IMG/VR virus record: IMGVR_UViG_3300044858_002105
Span: 1 to 20,638 of that record
Direction: 5' to 3' (one strand)
From: a virus
DNA: 20,638 nucleotides
The notes below the pieces were generated by a model. It was not told the DNA's origin. It worked only from the letters and a program-made list of their open reading frames with translations, and searched no databases. Made by a program: the position numbers and the translations under genes. Position 1 is the first letter of the stretch; the number at the start of each line of letters is the position of its first letter. Positions 5,742 to 10,181 of this stretch are shown here, one piece after another.

Positions 5742-6108
5742 TCCGAAGTATCGCTCAAAGCTGGAAGGTGTAGTCGCTCGACAATTATCGGGTAGCACAG
5801 CCTTCCAATATGAGGGTATTAAGCTGGCCTACGAAGTCCAAGAAATGAGACATTATGTTCCGGACTTCATACTTCCAAATGGGATCTATATCGAAGTAAA
5901 GGGCTACCTAAGATCAGAAGACAGGAAGAAGATGATTTTAGTTAAAAAGCAACACCCTGATATTGACTTGCGGCTCATCTTCCAGCGAGCGAGCAATCGG
6001 ATTTACAAAAAATCGAAAACAACATACGCAGATTGGGCAAGAAAACATGGATTCATTTACTCAGATAACGGACGAGTCCCTAGAGAATGGCTCGTCAACG
6101 CTAGTTAA
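5728..6108 (+). CDS. Endonuclease I (Holliday-junction resolvase), T7 gp3-like
   Basis: A junction-resolving nuclease of the restriction-endonuclease-like fold; in T7 it debranches replicating DNA and degrades host DNA. With GTG 5728 as start the protein is 126 residues (T7: 149). The active site is complete: E13 in RSKLEGVV, D46 in VPDFILPNG, and E56 and K58 in IYIEVKG (T7 E20, D55, E65, K67). LRSEDRKKMILVKKQHPDID and the C-terminal ARKHGFIYSD also align with T7. An open frame extends upstream to ATG 5602, but that would overlap the SSB gene by 140 bases with no conserved sequence, so the short form is preferred. The start is uncertain. It overlaps the primase-helicase by 62 bases. Confidence 0.88.
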   Translation: MRSSSPKYRSKLEGVVARQLSGSTAFQYEGIKLAYEVQEMRHYVPDFILPNGIYIEVKGYLRSEDRKKMILVKKQHPDIDLRLIFQRASNRIYKKSKTTYADWARKHGFIYSDNGRVPREWLVNAS

Positions 6109-7708
6109 TCACGGCCCTTGCTTGTCCTGCGGGTCAAGCGATGCCAACGCTCTTTACACGGACGGACACGAGTTTTGTTTCTCGTGCAAGGCTTATAAGC
6201 ACGGAGACAGTAGTATTCAATACACAAAAATGACAAACGACACGCAACAGTTTGGTTTCACTCCTGTCGCTGGAGAGGTTAAGCCTCTTACTAAGCGTCA
6301 AATCAACGAGGATACGGCTCGTAAATGGGATTATCAGGTAGGGTTGTATAACAATCAGCCTGTTCAGATCGCTAATTACCGGAATATGCAGGGGCAGATT
6401 GTTGCCCAAAAGCTACGGTTTCCTAACAAGGAGTTTATAATCAAGGGGGATGCTTCCAAGATGGGTCTTTACGGCCAGCACTTGTGGCGTGACGGAGGAA
6501 AGATGCTCGTGGTCACTGAAGGCGAGATTGATGCTCTTAGCGTCAGTCAAGTTCAGCAGAATAAGTGGCCTGTTGTTTCTGTTCCTAACGGAGCACAGGG
6601 AGCACTTAAAGCCATCAAGCAGAATATTGAATACATTGACCAGTTTGAAACTGTTGTCTTTATGTTCGACAATGACGAGCACGGTATCAGAGCAGCCAAG
6701 GAGTGTGCTTCCATCCTGAAGCCTAATCGTGCGCGTATTGCTACGCTGGAGTCGAAAGATGCAAACGACCTTCTTACCTCTGGAAACGGAGCCAGCATTA
6801 TTGACGCTATCTGGAAAGCCAAAAGCTTCCGTCCGGATGGCATCGTAGATGCGGCACAAATGTGGGATGCACTGGTTAACGCCCCAAAGATGGAGTCTAT
6901 TCCCTATCCTTGGATCGGTCTGAATGACATGACACGAGGGATACGTAAGGGGGAGCTTGTCACGCTTACCGCTGGTTCTGGTATCGGAAAGAGCCAGATT
7001 TGCCGTGAGATTGCTCACTGGTTGGTTCAGTCCGGTCAGGCTGTAGGTTACATTGCCTTGGAAGAAAGTGTCCGTAGGACGGTTTTGGGGATGCTAGGGA
7101 TTCACCTCAATAAGCCCCTGCACCTTGAAATGTCGGTGTCTGATGACCAGCTTAAAGAGGCTTTTGATGAGGTTATCGGTAGCGGTAACTTCTTCACCTA
7201 TGACCATTTCGGTTCTATTGAGTCCACTAACTTGCTCAATCGTATTCGATACATGGTTCACGGATGCGGGTGTAACTGGATTATACTTGATCACCTTAGC
7301 ATTGTTGTCAGTGCTTTTGGTGAGGGAGATGAACGTAGGCTGATTGATTCCGTAATGACCAAGCTTCGCTCACTGGTCGAAGAGTTGAAGATAGGGGTTA
7401 TTCTCGTCAGCCATCTCAAGCGTCCCGATGGTCGCGGCCACGAAGAAGGGGCAGCTACTTCTCTATCACAACTGCGTGGTTCCGCTGGTATAGCTCAGCT
7501 TAGCGATATGGTATTGGGCCTTGAGCGCAACCAGCAAGACGAACAAAACAAGCACATCACAAGAGTTCGTGTCCTAAAGAACCGCTTTAGCGGAGAAACC
7601 GGACTTGCGTGTAGCCTTGGCTATAACCCCGAAGAAGGCAGACTCAGAGAAGTCCATACTGAGCCTGAAGTTCCAGACCAACTAGAAAATAAGAAACACG
7701 AATTTTAA
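6047..7708 (+). CDS. DNA primase-helicase, T7 gp4-like
   Basis: 553 residues (T7 gp4A is 566). The zinc-binding primase domain has C25, C28, C44 and C47 (CLSC and CFSC). TOPRIM has E158 in VVTEGEIDAL and D208, D210 in MFDNDEHG. The RecA-like helicase has Walker A GSGIGKS (K315), Walker B near IILDHLS (D415), the VSHLKRP sensor region and an arginine-finger-type VLKNRFSGETG. The C-terminus ends KKHEF, keeping the terminal phenylalanine used in T7 to touch the DNA polymerase. ATG 6047 gives an N-terminus resembling T7 gp4; longer TTG starts run into the endonuclease gene. An internal ATG (M62, base 6230) falls where T7 makes the helicase-only form. Confidence 0.95.
   Translation: MDSFTQITDESLENGSSTLVNHGPCLSCGSSDANALYTDGHEFCFSCKAYKHGDSSIQYTKMTNDTQQFGFTPVAGEVKPLTKRQINEDTARKWDYQVGLYNNQPVQIANYRNMQGQIVAQKLRFPNKEFIIKGDASKMGLYGQHLWRDGGKMLVVTEGEIDALSVSQVQQNKWPVVSVPNGAQGALKAIKQNIEYIDQFETVVFMFDNDEHGIRAAKECASILKPNRARIATLESKDANDLLTSGNGASIIDAIWKAKSFRPDGIVDAAQMWDALVNAPKMESIPYPWIGLNDMTRGIRKGELVTLTAGSGIGKSQICREIAHWLVQSGQAVGYIALEESVRRTVLGMLGIHLNKPLHLEMSVSDDQLKEAFDEVIGSGNFFTYDHFGSIESTNLLNRIRYMVHGCGCNWIILDHLSIVVSAFGEGDERRLIDSVMTKLRSLVEELKIGVILVSHLKRPDGRGHEEGAATSLSQLRGSAGIAQLSDMVLGLERNQQDEQNKHITRVRVLKNRFSGETGLACSLGYNPEEGRLREVHTEPEVPDQLENKKHEF
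6230..6232 (+). promoter_or_regulatory. Possible internal start for a helicase-only form (gp4B-like)
   Basis: In-frame ATG at codon 62 of the primase-helicase, just after the zinc domain; T7 starts gp4B at codon 64. Upstream context ACACAAAAATG resembles the context of the gene start at 2048 (CACACAAAATG). No Shine-Dalgarno at proper spacing. Inference from position. Confidence 0.35.
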
Positions 7709-7713
7709 TACTT

Positions 7714-7827
7714 TGTCGGGGAAAAGGGATTGCGGCGGCGTTTTTCTGCGTGTTGTTGGAGTTCCGCTGGTTAGTTTTCATCCCCTGTCTCGTAACCGCA
7801 TAAAAGCGAGACACCCGACACTTTTTT
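7714..7827 (+). ncRNA. Predicted three-way-junction RNA element upstream of the polymerase unit
   Basis: The 121-base gap after the primase-helicase folds by eye into nested stems. Stem 1 is TGTCGGG (7714-7720) with CCCGACA (7814-7820). Stem 2 is GGGAT (7726-7730) with ATCCC (7780-7784), enclosing GCGG/CCGC. Stem 3 is TGTCTCG (7786-7792) with CGAGACA (7807-7813), loop AACCGCATAAAA. Stems 3 and 1 abut with no spacer. A run of six T follows (7822-7827), two bases before the next ATG. It matches no riboswitch or ribozyme core known to me. It could be a terminator, a leader controlling the downstream genes or a processed RNA. Confidence 0.4.
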
Positions 7828-7829
7828 CC

Positions 7830-7991
7830 ATGAAAAAGCAGCCCAAACAAACCAAGTTTGACTTCCTGAGTGAAATTCCGAAGTCAAGTAAACCCCGCAA
7901 CAAAAAGAAGCTAATTAATGAGATTGAAAATCAAGAAAGCGAAGAACAGCTTGAATTAGATCTCCGATGCCCTGAGAATTACGAACTATGA
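7830..7991 (+). CDS. 53-residue protein with clamp-binding-like motif, unknown
   Basis: It begins at ATG 7830 right after the structured RNA and T-run, and its stop overlaps the DNA polymerase start as ATGA (7988-7991), so the two are likely translationally coupled. The N-terminal half is lysine-rich (MKKQPKQTKF, KPRNKKK). The C-terminal half is acidic with QLELDL at residues 40-45, which fits the QLxLxL hexapeptide that docks proteins such as E. coli Pol IV on the bacterial sliding clamp. No globular domain is evident. A role as a small polymerase accessory or tether is inference. A longer frame from 7713 would run across the RNA structure and is not favoured. Confidence 0.6.
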   Translation: MKKQPKQTKFDFLSEIPKSSKPRNKKKLINEIENQESEEQLELDLRCPENYEL

Positions 7992-9829
7992 GCACCCTCC
8001 TGTTCGATACCGAAACGGATCACCTTGTTGAAAAAGCAACAAAGCTTCATTGCTTAGTGGCATACAATCCGGAGACTGATGAGCTTTTCCGGTTTAATTC
8101 TCAAAGCAACAACCTTGAAGAAGGACTAAAGCTTCTTGAGTCTACTGATGTCATAGTAGGACACAACGCAATCGGTTTTGACGTTCCTGTGCTTCAAAAG
8201 CTGTATCCTTCATTCACACCGAAGACAGTGCGTGACACTTTGATTTATACACGGTTCATGTTTGCTGATTTGAAGGAACGCGATTTTCACCGTGTAAACA
8301 AAGACTCTACGTTTCCAAAAAACCTGATCGGATCTCATTCGCTAAAAGCGTGGGGTTTCCGGTTGGGTATTTATAAAGGGGAGTTCAAAGAGAAGAACAG
8401 TTTTGAGAACTGGTCGCCTGAGATGGAGGAGTATTGTGTTCAGGATGTCATGGTAACTCGTCGCCTTTGGCAGATGATCAAGGATCAAAACCCCGCTGAT
8501 CGTGCCGTAGAGCTTGAGCACGATTTTGCCACACTAATCTACGGTCAGGAAAAGCACGGCATTATGTTCGATGTAAAGAAAGCCAACGCTTTGTATGCGA
8601 CCCTTGCCAAAAAGCGGATTGATATTGAACAGAAGCTTCAAGTCATCTTTGAGCCTCGTGTTGAGATCATGAAGAAGCGTCACTACCTCTTCTTTGACAA
8701 AGTGTTTGCTTCCAAAGGCGAAGCTACTGCGTATGCTAAGGCATGGGCAAAAGATCAGTTAATGACCCAAAAGGATGCCCTTGCGTTGATCAAGGAAGGC
8801 GAGCCTCACAAGAAGGAAATCCCATTCAACTGTGGAAGCCGCGATGAAATCGCGCAACGCTTCAAAGCGAAGTATGGATGGGAGCCTACGGAGTTTACTC
8901 CTGACGGAAAACCCAAGATGGATGAGTCAATCCTTTCCAAGCTGGATTTCCCTGAAGCTACTCCTTTACTTGAGTATCTTACGGTTCAAAAGCGTATTGG
9001 ACAGCTTGCGGAGGGTAAAGAAGCGTGGATTAAGTTGGAACGTAACGGACGGATTCACGGACGAGTAAACACCAACGGAGCCGTTACCGGACGATGCACA
9101 CACAGCAAGCCTAACATTGCCCAAGTTCCTGCGGTCAGGGCTGCGTATGGCAAGGAGTGTCGGGAGTTGTTCACCGTTCCTCGTGGATACAAGATGGTGG
9201 GCTGTGACGCTTCCGGATTGGAGTTGCGTTGCTTAGCTCACTACATGGCTAAGTGGGACAACGGAGCCTACGCTACTGAGCTTCTGGAAGGCGACATTCA
9301 CACTGCCAACCAGACTGCTGCTGGTCTTCCTACGCGAGACAATGCCAAGACCTTCATCTATGCGTTCCTTTACGGAGCGGGTGATGCCAAGATCGGAAGC
9401 ATCATTGGTAAGGGTCAGGATGCTGGAAGGCAGCTACGCGAAAATTTCCTGAAGAAAACCCCTGCTTTGAAGTATCTCAAAGAAGCCGTGGAAAAGGCCA
9501 GTAGCCGTGGGTGGCTGGTTGGTCTTGACGGACGGCAGCTTCCTATCCGCTCGCAGCACGCCGCTCTTAACACGCTTTTGCAATCAGCAGGGGCTTTGGT
9601 AATGAAGAAGGCTGCTTGCTTCCTGTGGGAAGGATACCGTGGGGTATTTTCTTGGAAGTTTGTCGCTAACATCCACGACGAATGGCAAATCGAAGTCGAT
9701 GAAGATTACGCTGAGATGATTGGAAAGGGTTCTGTTGATGCCATACAAGACTCAGGGGAATACTTCAACTTCCGATGCCCCCTAGACGGAGAATTCCGTA
9801 TCGGAAATAATTGGGCAGAAACGCACTGA
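7988..9829 (+). CDS. T7-like family A DNA polymerase with 3'-5' exonuclease
   Basis: 613 residues; T7 gp5 has 704. Exonuclease carboxylates: D7 and E9 (FDTETD), D65 (GFDVPV) and D153 (VQDVMVT). Polymerase motif A is CDASGLELRCLAHYM with D407; motif B is RDNAKTFIYAFLYGAG with K454 and Y458 (T7 Y526); motif C is NIHDEW with D564, E565. All catalytic residues are present. The thumb insert that forms the thioredoxin-binding domain in T7 is replaced by a shorter alanine/lysine-rich helix-like segment (about residues 231-277). The basic loop VKWKRRW that precedes IKGLDG in T7 is absent (here SSRGWLVGLDG). It probably replicates the phage genome with the upstream SSB and helicase. Identity is very secure; the processivity mechanism is open. 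Confidence 0.97.
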   Translation: MSTLLFDTETDHLVEKATKLHCLVAYNPETDELFRFNSQSNNLEEGLKLLESTDVIVGHNAIGFDVPVLQKLYPSFTPKTVRDTLIYTRFMFADLKERDFHRVNKDSTFPKNLIGSHSLKAWGFRLGIYKGEFKEKNSFENWSPEMEEYCVQDVMVTRRLWQMIKDQNPADRAVELEHDFATLIYGQEKHGIMFDVKKANALYATLAKKRIDIEQKLQVIFEPRVEIMKKRHYLFFDKVFASKGEATAYAKAWAKDQLMTQKDALALIKEGEPHKKEIPFNCGSRDEIAQRFKAKYGWEPTEFTPDGKPKMDESILSKLDFPEATPLLEYLTVQKRIGQLAEGKEAWIKLERNGRIHGRVNTNGAVTGRCTHSKPNIAQVPAVRAAYGKECRELFTVPRGYKMVGCDASGLELRCLAHYMAKWDNGAYATELLEGDIHTANQTAAGLPTRDNAKTFIYAFLYGAGDAKIGSIIGKGQDAGRQLRENFLKKTPALKYLKEAVEKASSRGWLVGLDGRQLPIRSQHAALNTLLQSAGALVMKKAACFLWEGYRGVFSWKFVANIHDEWQIEVDEDYAEMIGKGSVDAIQDSGEYFNFRCPLDGEFRIGNNWAETH

Positions 9830-9830
9830 T

Positions 9831-10181
9831 ATGGATATTTCTGAAGCCGCCAAAGCTTATATTGCGGGTTATATGGACGGAGAAGGATGCTTTCGCTGGC
9901 ACGTATACTCCCCCGAAGTTGGCGTTAAATCATGCAACCCCTATCCCATGAAATACATTTCAAGTATTTTTGGCGGGACGATCCGGAAAGAAAAAGGAAA
10001 AACTAAAAAAGGAAAGTCTGTTTATAGTCTCCGCTACTACGGACAGACAGCCATTGATGTTCTGGATTGTATTCAGGAATACCTCATCGAGAAAAAAGAC
10101 CAAGCAGAAACAATGATTCAGTTATTCGATCTAAACAATAAACTAAAACAAGCAAAGCGAAAGGATCACAATGAGCACTAA
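9831..10181 (+). CDS. LAGLIDADG-type homing endonuclease (free-standing, single motif)
   Basis: 116 residues with one LAGLIDADG-like helix, AYIAGYMDGEGCFRW (residues 9-23, D16 and E18 as likely metal ligands). The usual C-terminal pattern follows: YISSIFGGTI, a basic hairpin, YYGQTAIDVLDCIQEYLI and a KK..QAE helix. One motif implies it works as a homodimer. It begins one base after the polymerase stop and overlaps the exonuclease start by 11 bases. It is therefore a compact insertion between polymerase and exonuclease rather than an intron-borne ORF; both neighbours look intact. The target is unknown, possibly the same locus in related phages. Confidence 0.75.
   Translation: MDISEAAKAYIAGYMDGEGCFRWHVYSPEVGVKSCNPYPMKYISSIFGGTIRKEKGKTKKGKSVYSLRYYGQTAIDVLDCIQEYLIEKKDQAETMIQLFDLNNKLKQAKRKDHNEH

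Follow-up and report, generated by a model that had tools for sequence, protein, structure and literature searches.

The locus described here raises the question of how processivity may be supplied to the DNA polymerase of a T7-like phage when that polymerase has no thioredoxin-binding domain. In T7, host thioredoxin is the processivity factor of gp5; how a polymerase without the domain that binds thioredoxin is made processive in T7-like phages is, to our knowledge, not settled. The sequence analysed (the window), 20,638 bases long, is the record of an uncultivated virus, in which a gene for a protein of 53 amino acids (MKKQPKQTKFDFLSEIPKSSKPRNKKKLINEIENQESEEQLELDLRCPENYEL) lies between the helicase and polymerase genes of a T7-like replication module (Table 1). 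The preliminary description had pointed to this ORF and to QLELDL at residues 40-45 of its product, and both were found as described when the sequence was read again. By analogy with known clamp ligands, it is judged somewhat probable that the small protein binds the host beta clamp in one way or another, either as a tether or as a blocker; that it tethers the phage polymerase or replisome to the clamp on DNA is put forward tentatively, as one possible form of such binding.

Table 1. Features of the replication region of the window
Feature	Position	Strand	Basis or remark
SSB	from 5088		T7-like replication module
Endonuclease I	from 5602		T7-like replication module
T7 gp4-like primase-helicase	5963..7708	+	Profile matches; true start probably inside the ORF
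Leader with inverted repeats, helicase stop to small gene	7709..7829	+	Conserved in the window's subclade only
Small gene, 53 aa, new family	7830..7991	+	Orthologues, purifying selection; no Pfam, NCBIfam or PHROG family
N-terminal motif QTKFDF, residues 7-12	7848..7865	+	Q, F and F invariant in 9/9; clamp spacing, F at position 4 non-canonical
Basic stretch N-K-K-K-[LI]-I, residues 24-29	7899..7916	+	Conserved; start of predicted helix 25-46
C-terminal motif QLELDL, residues 40-45	7947..7964	+	Fits hexameric beta-clamp-binding consensus (PMC11139829); Q-L-[EKT]-[LF]-x-[LFY] in 9/9
Family A (T7 gp5-like) DNA polymerase, 613 aa	7988..9829	+	PF00476, E=3.3e-42; model Z ~42 to T7 gp5
Thumb insert, polymerase residues 222-275, in place of T7 thioredoxin-binding domain	8651..8812	+	Alignment to T7 gp5; insert type limited to small-gene clade
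Free-standing LAGLIDADG/HNH-like endonuclease ORF	9831-10181		Directly after polymerase gene
Exonuclease	from 10171		T7-like replication module

Ahead of the T7-like RNA polymerase gene, the window contains an ORF (114-1184) that resembles a tyrosine integrase by eye, which suggests that the phage is a temperate T7-like one. The nearest polymerase from a cultured phage (50.7% identical) is that of LUZ100, which has been characterised as a T7-like phage that shows temperate features (PMC10134795). This phage and other T7-like phages that carry an integrase resemble the window in their replication module as well as in that integrase, but in them about 40 bases separate the helicase gene from the polymerase gene and no small gene lies there.

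The modelled polymerase (mean pLDDT 91.5) has the T7 gp5-type fold, including both the polymerase and the exonuclease, with a Z score of about 42 over 540-576 residues. Alignment to T7 gp5 ends at T7 residue 261 and picks up at residue 330, so that the 68-residue thioredoxin-binding stretch of T7 is replaced by 54 residues; nothing in the window polymerase aligns with the thioredoxin-binding domain itself (T7 residues ~262-329). The "reduced thioredoxin site" of the preliminary description is thus altered but not merely reduced, T7 gp5 residues 262-329 having given way to 54 unalignable residues (222-275) that are modelled as strand-strand-helix-strand. The span from the thumb-helix motif to FN.GS is 78 residues long in all polymerases of the clade of phages that carry the small gene, which are at least 79% identical to that of the window, and the insert within it is nearly invariant (MKKRHYLFFDKVFASKGEATAYAKAWAKDQ in the window). 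Among the other relatives measured, the same span is 53-54 residues in seven and 70 in L009, and the inserts found in L129 and L110 are similar in length but unrelated. Because this type of insert is confined to the clade that has the small gene, the gene and the insert co-occur, which favours the tether; their co-occurrence within one tight clade may represent a single event, which counts against it. In seven records of the clade, contigs of up to 35 kb that may be incomplete, neither a DnaN-family gene nor a thioredoxin gene was found, which also favours the tether. Clamp motifs inside the polymerases themselves are not general; one candidate, QMTLLF of L004 and its copies, was rejected as it spans the start codon and lies outside the conserved part of the mature protein.

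The small ORF is a genuine gene. Orthologues were found in L001, L002 (=L003), L084, L006 (=L004/L005), L131 (=L008), L132, L133 (=L134) and L137 (=L007), giving nine distinct sequences including that of the window, to which the other eight are 38-74% identical; all come from uncultivated phages of a single T7-like clade. Nei-Gojobori dN/dS was 0.07-0.30 in eight of the nine computable pairs and 0.56 in the other (three further pairs being left out with saturated synonymous sites), and these low values indicate purifying selection on the protein. An upstream TTG start that would lengthen the product to 92 aa was ruled out because the orthologues begin at the ATG; at the other end, the L007 copy (62 aa) runs on past the polymerase ATG, and its alignment row is shorter. 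At codons 36-42 (7935-7955, GAAAGCGAAGAACAGCTTGAA), four sequences are free of synonymous differences, although synonymous sites elsewhere are near saturation, and a constraint at the nucleotide level shortly before the polymerase start is possible. The family is new to the profile libraries searched and previously undescribed: no Pfam, NCBIfam or PHROG profile fits the small protein (the best E value is about 0.02, to a family that differs between members), three members had no tblastn match (E up to 10) among 50,697 records of cultured phages, and an HMM search of six-frame ORFs from 131 sequences returned only members of the clade itself. Among more distantly related T7-like polymerases, in a sample that included 41 loci on bacterial or archaeal genome contigs, none has the small gene beside it. 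A fold search with the model of the small protein found nothing (best E 6.9), and its sole sequence match in the PDB (E 3.7) was dismissed as chance.

By its genomic position, the small gene belongs to the replication operon. It lies 3' of the helicase gene in every lineage examined, either overlapping it, or at most five bases away, or separated from it by a conserved leader of about 120 bases, the last of these in the window's subclade. In the window, the TGA of the small gene (7989-7991) overlaps the ATG of the polymerase gene (7988-7990) in an ATGA arrangement, as had been noted before, and the polymerase gene directly follows in six of the nine distinct lineages. Coupling to the polymerase gene is a property of the window and not of the whole family, because other ORFs intervene in L006, L131 and L133, where the helicase gene is still adjacent. 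The constant location in the replication operon beside the helicase gene, directly before the polymerase gene in six of nine lineages, favours the tether; since three lineages separate the two genes, synteny does not demand a role specific to the polymerase. The intervening ORFs of L131 (6130-7471) and L133 (3687-4310) are cargo that resembles methyltransferases and a glycosyltransferase by eye, and the site between the small gene and the polymerase gene is an apparent insertion hot spot. The LAGLIDADG/HNH-like ORF that follows the polymerase gene of the window is present also in L084, L132 and L133.

The leader, which has 85% mean column identity in four relatives and is absent from other lineages, contains the stems TGTCGGG/CCCGACA and TGTCTCG/CGAGACA, as well as a TTTTCAT sequence (7775-7781) that is complementary to the start-codon region ATGAAAA in all four. 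It could be a regulatory RNA leader; it had no match in Rfam, its folding z-score was -1.0, and zero compensatory changes were scored. A scan for sigma-70 promoters and terminators gave fewer sites than in shuffled sequences.

The case for clamp binding is made chiefly by the C-terminal motif (within residues 36-47, ESEEQLELDLRC). The nine hexapeptides are QLELDL, QLELNL (twice), QLELEL, QLELPY (twice), QLEFGY, QLKLSY and QLTFGF: they all begin with Q and L, have L or F at position 4 and L, Y or F at position 6, and vary at positions 3 and 5. The motif is thus kept in every orthologue, and the linker and tail drift. In the clamp-binding peptide of Pol IV, the glutamine and three leucines make contacts and the other two positions do not; conservation of the small protein's motif at the four contact positions and freedom at the other two, over nine sequences, favours the tether. 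Published work gives the hexameric consensus as Q-aliphatic-x-[L/M]-x-[F/L] (PMC11139829), and the fit to QLxLxL that had first drawn attention to the ORF holds strictly for the window's subclade (the window, L001, L002 and L084; 4/9), but elsewhere Y occupies position 6 and/or F position 4, so that the whole family (9/9) fits only the relaxed form Q-L-x-[LF]-x-[LFY]. The confinement of the strict consensus to one subclade counts against the tether. Y at position 6 and F at position 4 are absent from, or weaker in, ligands of the E. coli clamp, although the MutS protein of Bacillus subtilis uses QLSFF as its clamp motif (PMC8034640).

The hexapeptide of the window is one residue away from the QLELDF contained in LQLELDF, the most abundant peptide in a phage-display screen on the E. 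coli clamp, with low micromolar affinity (PMC11139829). The C-terminal end of the Pol III alpha subunit, SEQVELEFD, binds the clamp with a KD of 1.4 uM, and SEEQLELDL of the window is very near to both peptides. Acidic residues flank QLELDL, as in known clamp ligands, and this resemblance to QLELDF and SEQVELEFD, flanks included, favours the tether. Compared with the clamp motifs of bacteria (QLVLGL in Pol IV, QLSLPL in Hda, QVELEF at the C-terminus of Pol III alpha), the small protein shares the glutamine, an aliphatic residue at position 2, leucine at position 4, a hydrophobic residue at position 6, the acidic flanks and, putatively, the location in a flexible tail; it differs in being a free phage peptide of 53 residues rather than part of an enzyme, and in that its orthologues tolerate F at position 4 and Y at position 6.

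The likeness may be coincidental, with the small gene serving another role such as inhibition of a host defence, or serving in part as an element whose translation sets polymerase expression through translational coupling. Chance matches to short linear motifs are common, loose matches occur in four other ORFs of the window, and the codons with no synonymous change hint at nucleotide-level constraint; but the motif is kept between subclades whose proteins are only 38-45% identical and whose nucleotide sequence is not kept, and translational coupling is absent from three lineages. The pattern QLx[LF]x[LFY] occurs at a frequency of 4.2e-5 per residue in 880 phage ORFs, from which 0.002 occurrences are expected in a protein of this size, and it appears in 0.8% of shuffles of the small protein itself (about 0.008 expected from its own composition). 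Among 38 loci screened for small clamp-like ORFs between helicase and polymerase genes, the matches outside the clade (QAFIRI, QAEFPL, QLDIII, QLPLAL) were no more than isolated ones, and the ORFs that contain them are unrelated or doubtful. Coincidence is regarded as improbable.

Two further elements of the small protein were missed by the preliminary description. The N-terminal motif, Q-x-[KE]-F-x-F (within residues 4-15, QPKQTKFDFLSE), takes the forms QTKFDF, QTKFSF, QTEFAF, QSKFDF, QMEFEF, QIEFEF, QTEFDF and QVEFDF; it departs from the canonical clamp motif because position 4 is F and not L or M in all nine sequences, which counts against the tether. Two motifs of the looser common form occur together in 0.02% of shuffles, for a pattern that was defined after the data had been seen. 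The second element is the conserved basic stretch, which lies between the two motifs. The net charge is about +8 over residues 1-28 and about -8 over the second half, making the protein dipolar; of the twelve alignment columns that are invariant across the nine sequences, five fall in the two motifs. The small protein is modelled as a lone helix (residues 25-46) and coil, with a mean pLDDT of about 72 (66 for residues 41-50). QLELDL is placed at the end of this helix, which is predicted with moderate confidence; clamp peptides bind in an extended form, and the model to that extent disfavours the tether.

These features bear on an alternative in which the small protein never contacts the host clamp but acts as a mediator within the phage replisome, with its two Q-x-x-[FL]-x-[FL] motifs and basic helix as docking contacts to the helicase, SSB or polymerase, comparable to the docking of acidic tails on T7 polymerase. 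The constant linkage to the helicase gene, the dipolar charge with the conserved N-K-K-K-[LI] stretch, and the departures from the strict clamp consensus (F at position 4 throughout the N-terminal motifs, F/Y in the C-terminal one) all agree with such a role. It nevertheless leaves unexplained the match between the C-terminal motif and the clamp hexapeptide, which in the window's subclade extends to every contact position. This alternative is considered doubtful.

If the small protein is a tether, then a small and mostly flexible peptide of the replication module would grip the host beta clamp by its C-terminal QLELDL, perhaps with the N-terminal QTKFDF as a second, weaker contact. The basic first half would touch DNA or a partner in the phage replisome, for which the candidates are the thumb insert of the polymerase and the acidic, Phe-ending tails of the helicase or SSB. 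The polymerase, with no thioredoxin-binding domain, or the replisome as a whole, would thereby be tied to the clamp on DNA. We infer that a partner would be bound and, one step beyond the step from motif to clamp binding, that clamp binding would confer processivity. The most specific version, in which a two-motif adaptor of 53 residues docks the host beta clamp onto the T7-type polymerase via the thumb insert, is unlikely to be correct in every part. Such an arrangement would resemble that of T7 gp5 and thioredoxin in pairing a T7-type polymerase with a small protein whose proposed action is to confer processivity at the thumb; it would differ in that the thioredoxin-binding domain is replaced by the unrelated 54-residue insert and in that the small protein is encoded by the phage and is not a thioredoxin.

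The same C-terminal motif would also serve if the small protein bound the host clamp so as to exclude host polymerases and repair enzymes from it, with host replication shut down or redirected as a result; having two motifs would provide avidity, the dimeric ring having two pockets. A free small peptide could act in this way with no partner, and there are precedents: E. coli ceases to grow when the clamp peptide MGPRQLDLF is expressed in it, and gp168 of phage Twort inactivates the clamp by blocking its DNA channel (PMC11139829). The small protein would be like gp168 in that a small phage protein is aimed at the host clamp (for the window's protein, as a proposal only), but gp168 fills the DNA channel and not the peptide pocket (PMC11139829), and no resemblance of clamp motifs is claimed. 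A blocker is quite unlikely, given that the gene belongs to the replication operon and not to the early genes of host takeover, that it is linked to the helicase gene in all lineages, and that the conserved basic stretch would be left with no explanation.

Clamp motifs on enzymes are already known, as is a phage inhibitor of the clamp that acts at a different site (Twort gp168). A limited search of open-licence papers found no description of a tiny phage protein with clamp motifs beside a T7-type polymerase that has no thioredoxin-binding domain. The motif of the small gene suggests, from sequence, that these phages may borrow or block the host clamp, and a lineage that combines an altered polymerase thumb with a near-optimal clamp peptide offers a direct test case for use of the host clamp. 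Should the small protein prove to be a blocker, it would provide a natural small ligand for the clamp, which is a recognised antibacterial target. If it is an adaptor, there would be a second route by which a host factor confers processivity among T7-like phages, one in which the adaptor is a separate tiny protein.
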